This document shows positions 11,528 through 46,728 of a stretch of DNA of 64,000 nucleotides, in pieces. Position 1 is the stretch's first letter. Each line of letters begins with the position of its first letter. The stretch lies in assembly GCF_040436345.1 (NCBI RefSeq), contig NC_133237.1, positions 28,952,379-29,016,378 on the forward strand, given 5' to 3'. Source of the DNA: Pagrus major. Taxonomy: Eukaryota; Chordata; Actinopteri; Spariformes; Sparidae. The notes below the pieces were generated by a model, which made no database searches, had not been told where the DNA came from, and saw only the letters and a list, made by a program, of their open reading frames with translations. A program made the translations under genes and the position numbers.

Positions 11528-13540
11528 ACTATTTATTTATTTATTTAATGTTTATTTAACAGGGACAATACAGACAACATTGCCACAGAAAATGGGAAAA
11601 TGTGATGCATAGAAGACGTCTAGCTTCAGCTAATGTGCAGTCTTTGTCCCTGGTCAGGCTTTAGAATAGAATAAAATATACTGAATACAATAAATGCAAT
11701 GATACAAATCCAGTGGATAATACAGTGAGTAGGTACCATGAATAAATAAACACAGTTGCAGTTATAAATTTCAGATTAGAACAAAAAAGTTAAATTTAGC
11801 ATTAAACATTAGTAAAGTGCTGTATTGACAATGAGTTGAGAGAAGTTAATGTTCATATTTCTGCTGCTGCTTAAGCCAATGTTTAACTTTCACACTAAAC
11901 CTCTTTAGTTCTGTTTGGGATTTAATTTCTGATGGTAAAGAATTGTGTACCTCGCACTGAGAGAGATGATTGGCCAAATGTTGTCCTGCATCTTCGAATT
12001 TTACAGTTTTGCTTGGTTATGCTCCTTGTCATTGTCTTACAGTTGTCTGTCTTTTTAAAGATCTGAGACATCGCTTGTGGGGCCAGTCCATTTACGCACT
12101 TAAAAACAACTTTCAGAAAAGAGAATTTTATAAAATTGGAAAAAGTCAACAAATTTTTAAAGCCTGTTTATAGAGTGAGAATAGAGGTCTAGTAGCTGAG
12201 TCAGTGGCCTGGCCCCAGGCAGTGATGCAATAGGACAAATATGAAAGAACCATGACATGCAGATATAAATGAGATGCCGTAAAAGAGAGACATGACCTGA
12301 TAAGTCTAAAGCAGTTCAGACTAGTTTTTACAGTTTTAGATAGCTTCTTTATATGTGCGTCAAACTTAAGTTGAGGATCTAGAGTTATACCTAAATATTT
12401 AAACTCATTTACCACCTCAATTTCTTTACTATCAATAGTGAAGTCAAATTTCTCTAGGACTTTTTTTCTTATTGAGAAGCACATTGATGCTGTTTTTTTG
12501 TGATTAAGTGTTAAGTGATTCCTTTGTAGCCATTCTGAAACAGTAACCATCTTTCTGCTTAAGATCTCTGAAGCTTGACAGGGATTCTTTGCTGAAACAT
12601 AAAACACTGTGTCATCAGCATACATCTGACATTCAGTGTCTGTACAAATGGTAGGCAAATCATTTATGTATAAGCAAAAAAGAATAGGACCTAAAACTGA
12701 TCCCTGTGGCAGACCGGTCTTACTGTTCAGAGGAGATGTTTTCACATTCTGTAGGCGAACACACTGTTGTCGATATTCCAAATATGAGCTAAGCCAACTA
12801 ACAGCAAGAGCAGAAAAATTAAATTCATGTCTTAATTTACTGACAAGTATCTCATGACTTACAGTGTCAAAGGCTTTCTTCAAGTCCAAAAACACTACTC
12901 CAACCGCATTTCCATTGTCAAGGGAACATTTTATTCTCTCAATGAAGTGGCACAGTGCCATCTCAGTTGAACATTTTTTGCGGAATCCAAATTGCTTAGA
13001 ATGATAAAACTGATTGTTTTCAAGAAAGGTCATTAATTGATTAGCGATAACCTTTTCAAGTACTTTTGACATTGCTGGGAGAATTGATATCGGTCTATAA
13101 TTACTGGCATCAGTTAATGCACCAGATTTATAAATTGGGGTAATAATAGCCATTTTAAAACTTTGGGGACATTTCCCTTCTTTAATGGACAAATTTATCA
13201 GATGAAGTAATGGGCTTATCAAAATGGCACTATGTTTTTAAAAAAATAAAACATCGATTCCAAATGTATATTTTGCCTTTGAGTTGTGTAATTGCATTAT
13301 GATTTTTTGAATTTTGGTGTGGTCAGTTTGTTCGATGTTAAAGTAGGAAGACTGACCATTAGTTATGTTTTTTAAGTTTTGTAATTGTTGAAAATCTAAG
13401 TTAAGTTCATCTGTGTTGAGAGTTTTTTGGAAGTTTGATGTAAGTTCATCTACAGATTGTATGAAGTATGTATTCAATTCATTAGCTATTTCCTTGATGT
13501 TAGTGGAAATCATTCCTTTATTTCTGCATGGTGCTTTGGC
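11528..13540 (-). mobile_element. Non-LTR retrotransposon (LINE), reverse transcriptase region, decayed
   Basis: The main frame (12146-13222, minus) is a reverse transcriptase: NYRPISILPAMSKVLEKV, FLDLKKAFDTVSHEIL, TGLPQGSVLGPILFCLYIND and the YADD active site (CQMYADDTVFY). The upstream part continues in another frame at 13238-13513 and the C-terminal part at 11922-12152, so at least two frameshifts break it. The 3' end at about 11528 is an A/T-rich TAAATAAA-type tail on the minus strand. The endonuclease domain is not seen, so the copy is 5' truncated. The clade looks CR1/L2/Rex-like; I cannot assign it further. Confidence 0.85.
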
Positions 13541-16632: not shown

Positions 16633-17080
16633 TCCGTCATGTATCTGGTGTCTCTGTGCTCGTCTCTCTGTCCTGCAGCGTTGAATAAAGTCAGGTTCCT
16701 GTGATGTCACGGCTGCAGTCTGACCTGAGATCAGTGACAGCTGTGAATAAATTCATCAAACACCTGTTCTCACAGCAGCAGCAGCAGCTTTCCTGCGAAT
16801 CACCTGTAAATATTCAGAGTCACATGTCGTCACATCGCTTCATCTGATGGATTCTGTTCCATTGAACTTTATTCATATTTGTAATCAGTCTGTATTCAAA
16901 CCTGCATCCACCAGCCTCCATCACTGATCACAACTAAACTGATCAGTGATGATGTCACAAACATTCCTGCTTGAATACTGAAAACATTTTATTGATCAGT
17001 CAGAAAGACAAAACAACACGTTCACCATGACAACACCTGTGTCTCCACGACAACAAGTAGTTACTGAGAAAGTTACTTTT

Positions 17081-20000
17081 ACTGTTCTCTACTGTTCTCT
17101 GCTGTTCTTTACTGTTCTCTGCTGTTCTTTACTGTTCTCCGCTGTTCTTTACTGTCCTCTACTGTTCTTTACTGTTCTATGCTGTGCTTTACTGTTCTCT
17201 GCTGTTCTTTACTGTTCTCTGCTGTTCTCTACTGTCCTCTGCTGTTCTTTACTGTTCTCCGCTGTTCTTTACTGTCCTCTACTGTTCTTTACTGTTCTCT
17301 GCTGTTCTTTACTGTTCTCTACTGTTCTCTGCTGTTCTTTACTGTTCTCTGCTGTTCTTTACTGTTCTCCGCTGTTCTTTACTGTCCTCTACTGTTCTTT
17401 ACTGTTCTATGCTGTGCTTTACTGTTCTCTGCTGTTCTTTACTGTTCTCTGCTGTTCTCTACTGTCCTCTGCTGTTCTTTACTGTTCTCCGCTGTTCTTT
17501 ACTGTCCTCTACTGTTCTTTACTGTTCTCTGCTGTTCTTTACTGTTCTCTACTGTTCTCTGCTGTTCTTTACTGTTCTCTGCTGTTCTTTACTGTTCTTT
17601 ACTGTTCTCTGCTGTTCTTTACTGTTCTTTACTGTTCTCTGCTGTTCTTTACTGTTCTCTACTGTTCTTTACTGTTCTCTGCTGTCCTTTACTGTTCTCT
17701 AGTGTTCATTACTGTTCTCCACTGTTCTCTACTGTTCTTTACTGTTCTCTGCTGTTCTCTACTGTTCTCTACTGTTCTTTACTGTCCTCTACTGTTCTTT
17801 ACTGTTCTCTAGTGTTCATTACTGTTCTCTACTGTTCTCTGCTGTTCTTTACTGTTCTCTACTGTTCTTTACTGTTATCTACTGTTCTCTACTGTTCTTT
17901 ACTGTTATCTACTGTTCTTTACTGTTCTCTACTGTTCTTTACTGTTCTTTACTGTTCTCTGCTGTTCTTTGCTGTTCTCTACTGTTCTCTGCTGTTCTTT
18001 GCTGTTCTCTACTGTTCTTTACTGTTCTCTACTGTTCTTTACTGTTATCTACTGTTCTCTACTGTTCTTTACTGTTCTCTACTGTTCTTTACTGTTATCT
18101 ACTGTTCTCTACTGTTCTTTACTGTTCTCTACTGTTATTCACTGTTCTTCACTGTTCTCTGTTGTTCTCTACTGTTCTTTTATGTTCTCTACTGTTCTTT
18201 ACTGTTCTCTACTGTTCATTACTGTTCTTTTCTGTTCTCTACTGTTCTCTACTGTTCTTTACTGTTCTCTACTGTTCATTACTGTTCTTTACTGTTCTCT
18301 ACTGTTCATTAATGTTCTCTACTGTTCCTTACTGTTCTTTACCGTTCTTTACTGTTCATTACTGTTCTTTACTGTTCTCTACTGTTCTTTACTGTTCTCT
18401 AGTGTTCTCTACTGTTCTTTACTGTTCTCTACTGTTCTTTACTGTTCTCTACTGTTCTCTACTGTCCTCTACTGTTCTTTACTGTTCTCTACTGTTCTCT
18501 GCTGTTCTTTACTGTTCTCTGCTGTTCTTTACTGTTCTCTGCTGTTCTTTACTGTTCTTTACTGTTCTCTGCTGTTCTTTACTGTTCTCTACTGTTCTTT
18601 ACTGTTCTCTGCTGTCCTTTACTGTTCTCAAGTGTTCATTACTGTTCTCCACTGTTCTCTACTGTTCTCTGCTGTTCTCTACTGTTCTCTACTGTTCTTT
18701 ACTGTCCTCTACTGTTCTTTACTGTTCTCTAGTGTTCATTACTGTTCTCTACTGTTCTCTGCTGTTCTTTACTGTTCATTACTGTTCTCCACTGTTCTCT
18801 ACTGTTCTTTACTGTTCTCTGCTGTTCTTTACTGTTCTCTACTGTTCTTTACTGTTCTCTAGTGTTCTCTACTGTTCTTTACTGTTCTCTACTGTTCTTT
18901 ACTGTTCTCTACTGTTCTCTACTGTCCTCTACTGTTCTTTACTGTTCTCTAGTGTTCTCTGCTGTTCTTTACTGTTCTCTACTGTTCTTTACTGTTCTCT
19001 ACTGTTCCTTACTGTCCTCTACTGTTCTTTACTGTTCTATGCTGTGCTTTACTGTTCTCTGCTGTTCTTTACTGTTCTCTGCTGTTCTCTACTGTCCTCT
19101 GCTGTTCTTTACTGTTCTCCGCTGTTCTTTACTGTCCTCTACTGTTCTTTACTGTTCTCTGCTGTTCTTTACTGTTCTCTACTGTTCTCTGCTGTTCTTT
19201 ACTGTTCTCTGCTGTTCTTTACTGTTCTCTGCTGTTCTTTACTGTTCTTTACTGTTCTCTGCTGTTCTTTACTGTTCTTTACTGTTCTCTGCTGTTCTTT
19301 ACTGTTCTCTACTGTTCTTTACTGTTCTCTGCTGTCCTTTACTGTTCTCTAGTGTTCATTACTGTTCTCCACTGTTCTCTACTGTTCTTTACTGTTCTCT
19401 GCTGTTCTCTACTGTTCTCTACTGTTCTTTACTGTCCTCTACTGTTCTTTACTGTTCTCTAGTGTTCATTACTGTTCTCTACTGTTCTCTGCTGTTCTTT
19501 ACTGTTCTCTACTGTTCTTTACTGTTATCTACTGTTCTCTACTGTTCTTTACTGTTATCTACTGTTATCTACTGTTCTTTACTGTTCTCTACTGTTCTTT
19601 ACTGTTCTTTACTGTTCTCTGCTGTTCTTTGCTGTTCTCTACTGTTCTCTGCTGTTCTTTGCTGTTCTCTACTGTTCTTTACTGTTCTCTACTGTTCTTT
19701 ACTGTTATCTACTGTTCTCTACTGTTCTTTACTGTTCTCTACTGTTCTCTACTGTTCTTTACTGTTCTCTACTGTTATTCACTGTTCTTCACTGTTCTCT
19801 GTTGTTCTCTACTGTTCTTTTATGTTCTCTACTGTTCTTTACTGTTCTCTACTGTTCATTACTGTTCTTTTCTGTTCTCTACTGTTCTCTACTGTTCTTT
19901 ACTGTTCTCTACTGTTCATTACTGTTCTTTACTGTTCTCTACTGTTCATTAATGTTCTCTACTGTTCCTTACTGTTCTTTACCGTTCTTTACTGTTCATT

Positions 20001-21910
20001 ACTGTTCTCCACTGTTCTCTACTGTTCTTTACTGTTCTCTGCTGTTCTTTACTGTTCTCTACTGTTCTTTACTGTTCTCTAGTGTTCTCTACTGTTCTTT
20101 ACTGTTCTCTACTGTTCTTTACTGTTCTCTACTGTTCTCTACTGTCCTCTACTGTTCTTTACTGTTCTCTACTGTTCTCTGCTGTTCTTTACTGTTCTCT
20201 GCTGTTCTTTACTGTTCTCTGCTGTTCTTTACTGTTCTCTGCTGTTCTTTACTGTTCTTTACTGTTCTCTGCTGTTCTTTACTGTTCTCTACTGTTCTTT
20301 ACTGTTCTCTGCTGTCCTTTACTGTTCTCAAGTGTTCATTACTGTTCTCCACTGTTCTCTACTGTTCTTTACTGTTCTCTGCTGTTCTCTACTGTTCTCT
20401 ACTGTTCTTTACTGTCCTCTACTGTTCTTTACTGTTCTCTAGTGTTCATTACTGTTCTCTACTGTTCTCTGCTGTTCTTTACTGTTCATTACTGTTCTCC
20501 ACTGTTCTCTACTGTTCTTTACTGTTCTCTGCTGTTCTTTACTGTTCTCTACTGTTCTTTACTGTTCTCTAGTGTTCTCTACTGTTCTTTACTGTTCTCT
20601 ACTGTTCTTTACTGTTCTCTACTGTTCTCTACTGTCCTCTACTGTTCTTTACTGTTCTCTAGTGTTCTCTGCTGTTCTTTACTGTTCTCTACTGTTCTTT
20701 ACTGTTCTCTACTGTTCCTTACTGTTCTTTACTGTTCTTTACTGTTCTCTACTGTTCTCTGCTGTTCTTTACTGTTCCTTACTGTTCTCTACTGTTCTCT
20801 ACTGTTCCTTACTGTTCTCTGCTGTTCTCTACTGTTCTTTACTGTTCCTTACTGTTCTCTGCTGTTCTCTACTGTTCTTTACTGTTCTCTACTGTTCCTT
20901 ACTGTTCTCTACTGTTCTCTACTGTTCATTACTGTTCTTTACTGTTCTCTACTGTTCATTAATGTTCTCTACTGTTCTTTACTGTTCTCTACTGTTCCTT
21001 ACTGTTCTCTACTGTTCTCTACTGTTCATTACTGTTCTTTACTGTTCATTAATTTTCTCTACTGTTCCTTACTGTTCTCTACTGTTCTTTACTGTTCTCT
21101 GCTGTTCTGTGCTGTTCTCTACTGTTCTCTACTGTTCATTACTGTTCTTTACTGTTCTCTACTGTTCATTAATGTTCTCTACTGTTCTTTACTGTTATCT
21201 ACTGTTCTCTACTGTTCTCTGCTGTTCTCTACTGTTCATTAATGTTCTCTACTGTTCCTTACTGTTCTCTACTGTTCTTTACTGTTCTCTGCTGTTCTCT
21301 GCTGTTCTTTATTGTTCTCTACTGTTCTCTACTGTTCTTTACTGTTCTCTGCTGTTCTTTACTGTTCTCTACTGTTCTCTGCTGTTCTCTACTGTTCCTT
21401 ACTGTTCTCTGCTGTTCTCTACTGTTCATTAATGTTCTCTACTGTTCCTTACTGTTCTTTACTGTTCTCTACTGTTCTCTGCTGTTCTCTACTGTTCATT
21501 AATGTTCTCTACTGTTCCTTACTGTTCTCTACTGTTCTTTACTGTTCTCTGCTGTTCTCTGCTGTTCTTTACTGTTCTCTACTGTTCTCTGCTGTTCTCT
21601 ACTGTTCCTTACTGTTCTCTGCTGTTCTCTGCTGTTCTCTACTGTTCATTTATGTTCTCTACTGTTCCTTACTGTTCTCTACTGTTCTTTACTGTTCTCT
21701 ACTGTTCTTTACTGTTCTTTACTGTTCTCTGCTGTTCTCTGCTGTTCATTAATGTTCTCTACTGTTCCTTACTGTTCCTTACTGTTCTCTGCTGTTCATT
21801 ACTGTTATCTACTGTTCTCTACTGTTCCTTACTGTTCTCTACTGTTCTTTACTGTTCTCTACTGTTCTTTACTGTTCTCTACTGTTCTCTGCTGTTCTCT
21901 GCTGTTCTCT
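17081..21910. repeat. Decamer satellite (ACTGTTCTCT)n, 483 units in perfect register
   Basis: Every ten bases from 17081 to 21910 form one unit, mostly ACTGTTCTCT, ACTGTTCTTT, GCTGTTCTCT or GCTGTTCTTT, with no insertion or deletion that shifts the 10-bp phase. Rare marker units reveal nested duplications: ACTGTTCTAT-GCTGTGCTTT at 17171, 17401 and 19031; GTTGTTCTCT at 18161 and 19801; ACCGTTCTTT at 18341 and 19981. This implies a duplicated block of about 1.64 kb. The long open frames here are all the same low-complexity SLLFFTVLYC cycle and are not proteins. The array ends about 370 bp upstream of the gh1 TATA box. Confidence 0.98.
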
Positions 21911-22250
21911 ACTGTCTGATAATCTTCAGCGTGTGTTCTTTTCCCTGTTGTAGTGCGTTGGACAGTGAAGTCCATGACTGTGAACAGATGAATGACTTCA
22001 TATGATTGTGATGAGAGTTTTCTATCTGACTGAAGTCTCAACATGTTTTTTATTTATTTATTTATAAAAACAAAAGCTTTAGTTATTGATCAAAACAAAA
22101 ATCAGTTTCACCTTAAAAATTAGTTCAGCCGTCAACATGCAGTGATTTTATGATCTATAAACATTATTATTAAGGTATTAATGTTAAACACACACACACA
22201 GAGACACGTACACACACACGCACAACTTGTTTACTGGTTTCATGTTTCTG

Positions 22251-22279: not shown

Positions 22280-22286
22280 TATAAAA
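22280..22286 (+). promoter_or_regulatory. gh1 TATA box
   Basis: TATAAAA lies about 110 bp upstream of the start codon at 22398. Transcription is expected near 22310, giving a 5'UTR that includes a CAGAAC hexamer run (about 22370-22395). Confidence 0.75.
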
Positions 22287-22397: not shown

Positions 22398-25300
22398 ATG
22401 GACAGAGGTAAGACATCAAGATCAGCATTTCAGACTCCTTCACATCTGACTGACCTGTCTGTCTCTCTCTCTCTCTGTCTGACCTGTCTGTCTCTCTGAC
22501 GTGTCTGTCTCTCTCTCTCTCTCTCTGTCTGACCTGTCTGTCTCTCTGACCTGTCTGTCTGTCTCTCTCTCTGTCTGACCTGTCTGTCTCTCTGACCTGT
22601 CTGTCTGTCAGTGGTGCTCATGCTGTCGGTGCTGTCTCTGACCTGTCTGTCTCTCTGACCTGTCTGTCTCTCAGTGGTGCTCATGCTGTCAGTGTTGTCT
22701 CTGACCTGTCTGTCTCTCTGACCTGTCTGTCTGTCAGTGGTGCTCATGCTGTCGGTGCTGTCTCTGACCTGTCTTTCTCTCTGACCTGTCTGTCTCTCAG
22801 TGGTGCTCATGCTGTCGGTGTTGTCTCTGACCTGTCTGTCTCTCTGACCTGTCTGTCTCTCAGTGGTGCTCATGCTGTCGGTGCTGTCTCTGACCTGTCT
22901 GTCTCTCTGACCTGTCTGTCTCTCAGTGGTGCTCATGCTGTCGGTGCTGTCTCTGACCTGTCTGTCTCTCTGACCTGTCTGTCTCTCAGTGGTGCTCATG
23001 CTGTCGGTGCTGTCTCTGACCTGTCTGTCTCTCTGACCTGTCTGTCTCTCAGTGGTGCTCATGCTGTCGGTGCTGTCTCTGGGCGTCTCCTCTCAGCCGA
23101 TCACAGATGGCCAGCGTCTGTTCTCCATCGCTGTCAGCAGAGTTCAACACCTCCACCTGCTCGCTCAGAGACTCTTCTCTGACTTTGTGAGTCTACGGCA
23201 GCTCGAAGGGACAAAACTCACAAACATATGAGATTTCATTAAAGCTGGGGTTGGTCAGGAAGCAGCAGAAAGTCTGTCTGAATCTCATGCACACTGTCTG
23301 ACTACAGCAACTCTCTCGTAGTTTTACAGCGTCTCTCTGTGTTAGCAGCTAGTTCGCTACGTCCAACGAGCTCTCTGAGCTTCACAGTCGAATAGTTCCA
23401 GAAATAAACAAGTCTGAACACCACGGTCTTACAGGTTACACCCCGCCTTTCCGAAACCCAGCTGTTCCGAAAAGACTTCCATTCTTCGTAATGGCCGGGT
23501 GTCCCATGTTTTCTAAAGACCCCGCTATTCCGAAAAGGCTATTGGGGAACCCCTGACCCTGACCCTGACCCTGACCCTATTGGGAAGTAATTGGAACTTG
23601 AAAGTCGGATTCGGAACAGCGGTGTTTCGGAGTGGAAGGCCGTCCCCGGTCATAAACACAAGCTGAACGGCATGATGGTCCGTCAGTCTGAGGAGGCTGT
23701 TAACAGTCACTGCTTGGTGCTAATGTTAGCTGCTAACAGAGCTAATGGAAGCTGTTGCTGTGGTTCTGCTGTTAGCTTTGTGCTAACTGAGTTAGCTGCT
23801 GAACGACTGTGTGACCAACTCCAGCTTTAACCATCACTGTTTGCAGTGTTGTGTTTACAGCGTTGTGTGTCTGTGTGTGTGTGTTAGGAGAGCTCTCTGC
23901 AGACGGAGGAGCAGCTAAAGCTCAACAAAATCTTCCCTGATTTCTGCAACTCTGATTACATCATCAGCCCCATCGACAAGCATGAGACGCAGCGCAGCTC
24001 AGTGAGTACACACAGTACTACATGATACTGCACACAGTACTACATGATGCTGCACACAGTACTACATGATACTACACACGCACTACATGATACTACACAC
24101 GCACTACATGATACTACACAGTACTACATGATACTGCACACAGTACTACATGATGCTGCACACAGTACTACATGATACTACACACGCACTACATGATACT
24201 ACACACGCACTACATGATACTACACAGTACTACATGATACTACACACAGTACTACATGGTACTACACAGTACTACATGATACTACACATAGTACTACATG
24301 ATACTACACACGCACTACATGATACTGCATACAGTACTACATGATACTACACACAGTACTACATGATACTACACACAGTACTACATGATACTGCACACAG
24401 TACTACATGATGCTGCACACAGTACTACATGATACTACACACAGTACTACATGGTACTACACAGTACTACATGATACTACACACGCACTACATGATACTG
24501 CATACAGTACTACATGATACTACACACAGTTCTACATGATACTGCACACAGTACTACATGATGCTGCACACAGTACTACATGATACTACACACAGTACTA
24601 CATGATACTACACACGGTACTACATGATACTGCACACAGTACTACATGATACTACACACAGTACTACATGATACTGCACACAGTACTACATGATACTACA
24701 CACAGTACTACATGATACTGCACACAGTACTACATGATACTGCACACAGTACTACATGATACTACACACAGTACTACATGATACTACACAGTACTACATG
24801 ATACTACACAGTACTACATGATACTACACACAGTACTACATGATACTACACACAGTACTACATGATACTACACACAGTACTACATGATACTACACAGTAC
24901 TACATGATACTACACACAGTACTACATGATACTACACACAGTACTACATGATACTACACAGTACTACATGATACTACACACAGTACTACATGATACTACA
25001 CACAGTACTACATGATACTACACGTACTTCAACTCGCTTCAGGACAGACATTTCAGACATTTTGTTTATTTTCCTCCTCAATGTTCTCGTTGTTCTCTCA
25101 GAACCTCATTAACAAAAAAGATAGAACAAGAAGCGTCTCTGCTTCTGTCTCTTATTGATTGATTGATTGGTTCTAGGTGTTGAAGCTGCTGTCTATCTCC
25201 TATCGATTGGTCGAGTCTTGGGAGTTCCCCAGTCGTTCTCTGTCTGGCGGTTCTGCTCCGAGGAACCAGATTTCACCCAAACTGTCTGAGCTGAAGATGG

Positions 25301-25694
25301 GAATCCATCTCCTGATCAGGGTGAGAACACACACACCAATCATCTGCTACACATGGATCTGATGTATGTGTGAGTACCTGTGTGAGTAAACACCTGGTCC
25401 TGCAGGCCAATGAGGACGGAGCAGAGATCTTCCCTGATAGCTCCGCCCTCCAGCTGGCTCCTTATGGAAACTATTACCAAAGTCTGGGCGCCGACGAGTC
25501 GCTGAGACGAACCTACGAACTACTCGCCTGTTTCAAAAAAGACATGCACAAGGTGAGGAGGAAGAGGGGTGATGAGATAATGAAGATGTAGTGATGATGT
25601 CATGATGATGTCATGATATTTGTGTTTACAGGTGGAGACCTACCTGACGGTGGCGAAATGTAGACTCTCTCCAGAGGCCAACTGCACCCTGTAG
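22398..25694 (+). CDS. gh1: Growth hormone (somatotropin), six exons, 203 aa
   Basis: Secreted pituitary hormone acting through the GH receptor. Exons: 22398-22407, 23053-23186, 23888-24001, 25177-25320, 25406-25552, 25632-25694 (612 nt including stop). The 10-nt first coding exon (Met-Asp-Arg + 1 nt) and six-exon layout are typical of many teleosts. Signal peptide is about residues 1-17 ([14 protein letters not shown]), with the mature chain starting [20 protein letters not shown]. Four Cys (in DFCNSD, LACFKK, AKCRLS and NCTL) fit the two conserved disulphides, and Asn-Cys-Thr at residues 200-202 is the usual fish glycosylation sequon. Helix-4 signature [20 protein letters not shown] is intact. 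No lesion is seen. Introns 1 and 3 are minisatellite-filled; intron 1 carries seven extra copies of the exon-2 acceptor. Confidence 0.98.
22600..23079 (+). repeat. 63-bp minisatellite containing the gh1 exon-2 acceptor and exon start
   Basis: The junction CAG/TGGTGCTCATGCTGTC occurs with its first exon base at 22612, 22675, 22738, 22801, 22864, 22927, 22990 and 23053, exactly 63 bp apart. Only the last copy continues into GGGCGTCTCC and the rest of exon 2. The other seven run into GACCTGTCTGTCTCTCTGAC, with an in-frame TGA. The region before it (about 22450-22600) is a CTGTCTGTCTCT-type pyrimidine repeat. Confidence 0.97.
23446..23642. mobile_element. Short inverted-repeat element in gh1 intron 2
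   Basis: GAAACCCAGCTGTTCCGAA on the left is mirrored by TTCGGAACAGCGGTGTTTC on the right. Together with the GCCTTTCC / GGAAGGC tips this forms an imperfect terminal inverted repeat of about 30 bp around a 200-bp body. Inside are four CCCTGA hexamers (23551-23579). Probably a small non-autonomous DNA element; no target duplication was identified. Confidence 0.5.
24002..25027. repeat. gh1 intron 3 minisatellite
   Basis: About 1 kb of units of 16-24 bp built on CACACAGTACTACATGATAC, with variants lacking CAC or carrying GCACTACATG. It starts within about 10 nt of the exon 3 donor at 24002, whose own sequence GTGAGTACACACAGTAC is the first partial unit. Confidence 0.95.

Positions 25695-27026: not shown

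Positions 27027-46728
<19,702 letters not shown>

Follow-up and report, generated by a model that had tools for sequence, protein, structure and literature searches.

Eight tandem copies of the exon 2 acceptor in the growth hormone gene of Pagrus major

Results

The growth hormone gene and its neighbourhood

The window, that is the whole stretch of 64,000 nucleotides of Pagrus major DNA that was analysed, contains on its forward strand a gene that the original prediction had named gh1. This identity was upheld, as the deduced protein matches the Pfam family Hormone_1 (PF00103) over residues 20-201 with an E value of 2.8e-20 and growth hormone (GH) structures are its top matches in the PDB. In the PDB search, the best solved chain was growth hormone 1hwg_A (E 5.3e-20), human GH 3hhr_A matched with an E value of 6.3e-20 and the prolactin chains ranked below GH (E 1.4e-12 or weaker). 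Searches of prokaryote and virus contig collections gave no relative of the GH protein, as expected of those collections. The reading frame of gh1 is intact, with six exons, 203 amino acids and GT-AG introns, and its product is a member of the somatotropin family. Two exon joins leave this frame open, and the join that keeps the E of FESSLQ was chosen, a residue that we assume to be expected from fish GH. The elements of the gene are the following.

22280 to 22286, + strand: TATAAAA, likely TATA box of gh1 (position of the pattern; presumed role)
22398 to 22407, + strand: coding part of gh1 exon 1, ATGGACAGAG, with the donor GT at 22408
23053 to 23186, + strand: gh1 exon 2 proper, bounded by the eighth acceptor and the donor GTGAGT (134 nt; the sole copy that reads into GH)
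23888 to 24001, + strand: gh1 exon 3
25177 to 25320, + strand: gh1 exon 4
25406 to 25552, + strand: gh1 exon 5
25632 to 25694, + strand: coding part of gh1 exon 6, up to the stop codon

The gene has two neighbours. One is cdc27, for which matches to human CDC27 (E below 0.001) span 32404 to 46719. The other was recognized by eye as a voltage-gated sodium channel gene, which, from its sequence and its place, we take to be scn4a. Arrays also lie on both sides of the first exons of gh1: a 4.8-kb array of TACTGTTCTC-type units (17078-21915) stops 365 bp 5' of the TATA-like box at 22280, and intron 3 (24002-25176) consists mostly of a 22-bp minisatellite (24007-25023) that starts 6 nt past the end of exon 3. 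On the - strand, a 363-codon open stretch at 12149-13237 resembles, by eye, the reverse transcriptase of a non-LTR element.

A 63-bp minisatellite spanning the exon 2 acceptor

An exon 2 acceptor present eight times at intervals of 63 bp, with exon sequence included in the repeated unit, had been proposed. Both points were confirmed: the window holds exactly eight AGTGGTGCTCATG, starting at 22610, 22673, 22736, 22799, 22862, 22925, 22988 and 23051, with every step equal to 63 bp, and in each copy the unit contains intron and exon sequence around the splice site. The corresponding exon starts are 22612, 22675, 22738, 22801, 22864, 22927, 22990 and 23053. In 1000 first-order Markov resamples of 22400-23190, not even one AGTGGTGCTCATG was obtained. 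The array and the seven upstream exon starts are arranged as follows.

22445 to 22609, + strand: CU-rich array of CTGACCTGTCTGTCTCT-type units (46-50 bp) that contains neither exon sequence nor an AG
22574 to 23081, + strand: 63-bp minisatellite with the 3' splice site and the start of exon 2 (TRF: 8.1 copies, 97% matches, score 974)
22612 to 22640, + strand: exon 2 start, copy 1, with the acceptor AG at 22610-22611 and the tract CTGTCTGTCAG
22675 to 22703, + strand: exon 2 start, copy 2
22738 to 22766, + strand: exon 2 start, copy 3, with the tract CTGTCTGTCAG
22801 to 22829, + strand: exon 2 start, copy 4
22864 to 22892, + strand: exon 2 start, copy 5
22927 to 22955, + strand: exon 2 start, copy 6
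22990 to 23018, + strand: exon 2 start, copy 7

The claim of one identical junction in all the upstream copies was only partly borne out, since the literal CTGTCTCTCAG is present in five of the seven and copies 1 and 3 read CTGTCTGTCAG instead. Relative to the 63-bp consensus, three changes are found in copy 1, two in copy 2, one in copy 3, two in copy 4 and none in copies 5-8; one variant is common to copies 1 and 3 and another to copies 2 and 4. The exon part of the unit terminates in GTGCTGTCTCTG and the intron motif is GTCTCTCTGACC, while the 46-50 bp array located just 5' of the 63-bp array is built from the same CTGACCTGTCTGTCTCT motif. In the window as a whole, 78 copies of CCTGTCTGTCTCTC lie on the + strand, the one that carries gh1 and cdc27, as against a single copy on the - strand, and all 11 occurrences of CTGTCTCTCAG are located at acceptors or at array copies of acceptors.

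Strength of the eight acceptors

An AG, a C/T tract and branch-point-like CTGAC motifs are present in all eight acceptors, the A of the motifs lying 33 and 16 nt ahead of the final AG base. A small, home-made weight matrix, built on the remaining acceptors that had been hand-placed in the window, gave a score of 8.05 to copies 1 and 3 and of 10.34 to the six others (2 and 4-8); in leave-one-out scoring, the 31 hand-placed acceptors ranged from -6.0 to 19.8. As copies 2 and 4-8 score equally, the eighth copy is not distinguished by its own site. The context of the copies differs at both ends of the array. No AG occurs from 22434 to 22609, so that the longest AG-free run in the array region is the one ahead of the first acceptor, which is also preceded by six additional CTRAC motifs. 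At the other end, the sole GGG of 22398-23200, at 23081, follows the last copy only. Beyond the array, a ninth strong acceptor-like site, CTCCTCTCAG/CCG, was noticed at 23097 (score 10.95), 44 nt inside exon 2 and out of frame.

Two explanations by which the upstream sites would be disabled were rejected. The first, degradation of these sites, is contradicted by the presence of AG and of both CTGAC motifs in 7/7 of them, the tract of copies 1 and 3 being slightly weaker. The second, an RNA fold that masks them, is contradicted by the folding of the region, which is worse than that of shuffled sequence: for 22398-23187 the z score was +2.87 and 20/20 shuffles folded at least equally well, and for a two-unit piece of the array it was +0.97, with 166/200 shuffles folding at least equally well.

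Products expected from each acceptor

When the joins were translated, GH was obtained only with the last acceptor (23053). Exon 2 then measures 134 nt, against 197 to 575 nt with the upstream acceptors, and the length of intron 1 increases from 204 nt with the first acceptor to 645 nt with the last. Use of an upstream acceptor had been predicted to read LMLSVLSL and then TGA; every upstream acceptor does end at a TGA, but the five codons TCLSL follow LMLSVLSL first, and all seven give one identical 18-codon open reading frame. It had also been pointed out that a 63-bp unit keeps the phase. The copies do share phase, yet this rescues nothing because each upstream unit contains an in-frame TGA. 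Between the TGA reached by upstream use and the end of exon 2 lie 150 to 528 nt, and four further introns follow. As a stop codon well before an exon end and followed by introns usually leads to nonsense-mediated decay, the mRNAs spliced at upstream acceptors are predicted targets of this pathway.

Re-splicing from within the array, which the original prediction had left as a way out, has little support and is not favoured. With the donor matrix, the best GT in the unit scores 3.9 vs 12.0 for the exon 1 donor, the joint highest value of the 28 hand-placed donors in a matrix that includes that donor itself. A score of at least 5.9 was obtained for 26/28 of these donors, but the two others, at 2.3 and 3.1, fall below the GT in the unit, so that re-splicing keeps some likelihood; the donor scoring 3.1 is that of gh1 exon 2.

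Repeats at other splice junctions of the window

Counting every period, TRF arrays occupy 22,143 of the 64,000 bases (35% of the window), and in cdc27 four arrays reach a splice junction. Exon 3 of this gene (32503-32647) resembles gh1 in that tract, AG and exon start are repeated in tandem, here 73 bp apart. It differs from gh1 by the presence of two copies, of which the first acceptor leaves an intron of 38 nt and the second one of 111 nt. The reading from the first acceptor stops after EEALYLLATC and the second gives the correct protein. An intron of 38 nt being probably too short to splice, the geometry may settle acceptor choice in cdc27. On the donor side, the exon 17 donor is present three times in 60-bp steps (44281-44444). 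A 44-bp minisatellite (37906-39051, 26.4 copies by TRF) fills intron 12 almost completely; it starts within exon 12 and takes in the donor of that exon, ACACAG/GTAACAC, near copies of which recur at +475 and +952. Finally, a 32-bp array starts at the first base past exon 19 (45317-45393). With these further arrays in cdc27, arrays at junctions are a habit of the locality and are not special to gh1.

The frequency of repeats at junctions was compared with that of the surrounding sequence, the junctions being hand-placed from protein matches and reading frames, with scn4a incomplete (7 acceptors, 4 donors). When 24-mers centred on the junction were compared with the sequence within 1 kb (at most 3 mismatches), near copies were found for 2/31 acceptors and 2/28 donors. 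For gh1 and cdc27 together this gives 4/48 junctions vs 2563/7661 control positions taken at every third base. A TRF array with a period of at least 8 lies over the tract of 12/31 acceptors, namely 12/24 in gh1 and cdc27 and 0/7 in scn4a; as a control, such arrays covered a fraction of 0.435 of 5000 segments taken at random from the introns of gh1 and cdc27. Enrichment of junctions in repeats was rejected, as neither measure is clearly above the expectation from repeat density. Given how rich in repeats the region is, the gh1 array probably arose as a by-product of it.

A 1,934-bp array (41179-43112) made of 24-bp units resembling a branch point and tract contains no AG and reaches the exon 14 acceptor of cdc27. 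Selection against AG in this array is unsupported: among 57 of its 68 pieces, 11 being left out for length, six distinct substitutions were counted, and since 5/72 of the possible ones make an AG, about 0.4 would be expected.

Discussion

A junction-spanning minisatellite with a probably productive last acceptor

The arrangement described here points, with slightly better than even probability in our estimation, to a junction-spanning minisatellite of the kind found in human CBS, spread by slippage, in which the last acceptor is productive and some unproductive splicing upstream is likely. Such an array could have begun when the similar C/T-rich stretches of the intron end and the exon start slipped against each other in replication or exchanged unequally, and the break appears, by eye, to display about 4 nt of shared sequence, TCTG. 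The C/T-rich codons of the hydrophobic signal peptide resemble the adjoining tract, which would invite slippage across the junction. Further slippage, including a two-unit step, would account for the variants shared by copies 1/3 and 2/4, and a recent run of slippage may have generated the identical copies 5-8. We infer this slippage origin from the anatomy of the array alone.

Concerning acceptor choice, exon definition would favour the last acceptor, the only one to form a short exon 2 (134 nt) together with the donor of that exon, and would lead to productive mRNA. Since the fish needs GH and its gene is intact, this site is taken to carry enough of the splicing. Because the upstream acceptors are complete, some use of them is probable; their messages, with the 18-codon open reading frame, would be degraded, and the array would act as a passive sink for part of the GH pre-mRNA and not as a switch.

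Published data bear on this choice in both directions. In human CBS 844ins68, the distal copy is strongly favoured in splicing (PMC2630376, in excerpt); the excerpt speaks of a 'donor', and the title of the work cited there of a 3' splice site. A reporter library assayed in K562 cells revealed no effect of order on the choice between two equal tandem 3' splice sites (native spacing 2-59 nt), in contrast to 5' splice sites, of which the first was favoured (PMC6783452, in excerpt). Extended naively to eight sites, the result for equal acceptors would leave about 1/8 of the splicing to the last one, which argues against the productive last acceptor. The presence of a single GGG in 22398-23200 counts against a CBS-like distal choice by way of G-runs. 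Romano 2002 reportedly linked the distal choice in CBS to such runs. The AG-free stretch and the extra CTRAC motifs of the first acceptor also count against use of the last one.

Other interpretations

The array could instead be silent, exon definition being so strong that the seven upstream acceptors stay unused and GH does not depend on copy number. This interpretation is unlikely but keeps real weight, as a 134-nt exon 2 is formed solely with the last site, the strong distal choice in CBS 844ins68 offers a precedent (PMC2630376, in excerpt) and the intact six-exon frame means that GH is presumably made. It is opposed by the completeness of all the upstream sites, five of the seven scoring equal to the last, and by the lack of order preference for equal tandem acceptors in the reporter library (PMC6783452, in excerpt).

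If, on the contrary, the acceptors compete about equally, productive splicing would vary as about 1/n and copy number could be a selected or selectable growth dial, in line with the tuning of GH output suggested in the original prediction. The finding that two equal acceptors show no order preference (PMC6783452, in excerpt) and the length polymorphism of GH intron 1 in sea bream (PMC3045353, PMC3361217, in excerpt) are consistent with this idea, as is the identity of copies 5-8, expected after a recent change of copy number. It is improbable, however, in view of the nearby arrays that also reach junctions and of the fact that junctions are not over-represented in repeats (4/48 vs 2563/7661). 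The related proposal of a heritable in-line splicing attenuator is speculative and quite improbable: n near-equal acceptors, the last of them productive, would make GH mRNA fall with n (as about 1/n under equal competition), and slippage alleles would set growth.

It is very improbable that the junction is duplicated but that the number of eight is an assembly artefact. The identical run of copies 5-8 (4 x 63 bp) is of a kind that can be miscounted, but the private and shared variants of copies 1-4 follow a regular order, which is unexpected from a stuttering assembler, and the entire array, at 508 bp, fits one long read. A damaging allele, in which the first acceptor wins and the haplotype yields little GH, is hardly credible: no other acceptor of the array is preceded by so long a stretch free of AG or by so many branch-point-like motifs, and an early experiment with duplicated acceptors, in which the upstream site was reportedly favoured, was counted in its support, but the tract of the first acceptor is of the weaker type (8.05 vs 10.34) and the six-exon coding sequence is intact, as expected under selection.

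Relation to known repeats

Human CBS c.844_845ins68 is, like the gh1 array, a tandem duplication of an intron/exon junction, with 3' splice sites 68 bp apart, nearly the spacing of the gh1 copies (PMC2630376, in excerpt). It has two copies instead of eight and belongs to another gene and host, and the preference for the distal site that is reported for CBS is for gh1 a prediction. A second CBS repeat, the 31-bp VNTR c.1444_1467+7(16_21), has a unit that by its coordinates comprises the exon end and the intron start, and provides many copies of a splice site as in gh1. It differs in that it lies on the donor side, with 16-21 copies, and is polymorphic in people, whereas the gh1 array is on the acceptor side and was found in one sequence (PMC2630376, in excerpt). 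The ABCA7 VNTR, which is reported to affect the splicing of its gene, is described as intronic (PMC5954066, in excerpt); it is not known to carry a splice junction.

The earlier statement that GH minisatellites are known in sea bream proved correct, as they have been published for introns 1 and 3 (PMC3045353, in excerpt). The GH gene of the gilthead sea bream (Almuly et al.) resembles the present gh1 by its tandem repeats in introns 1 and 3, which there vary in length (PMC3045353, PMC3361217, in excerpt), and the sea bream GH fragment from exon 1 to intron 2 measures 1045 to 1900 bp (PMC3361217, in excerpt). No fish GH repeat including exon 2 is named in the titles and abstract starts of the literature matches listed. 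Among these matches, which were available in part and from a scope with most subscription journals outside it, none is an eightfold acceptor array, in GH or elsewhere. Junction-duplicating repeats, as in CBS, and sea bream GH minisatellites are thus known, and an eightfold acceptor array, in GH, is apparently new, not having been found in the literature searched, as far as the excerpts go.

Significance

Eight near-identical and complete 3' splice sites, of which the last alone makes the protein, constitute a natural duplicated-splice-site experiment on acceptor choice. Under equal competition, the productive share would be only 1/8. If the choice is made stepwise from 5' to 3', a pass-over probability of about 0.906 per upstream site would be required for half of the mRNA to be productive, and of 0.985 for nine tenths. 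The gene in which this experiment is set, gh1, matters for the growth of farmed fish.
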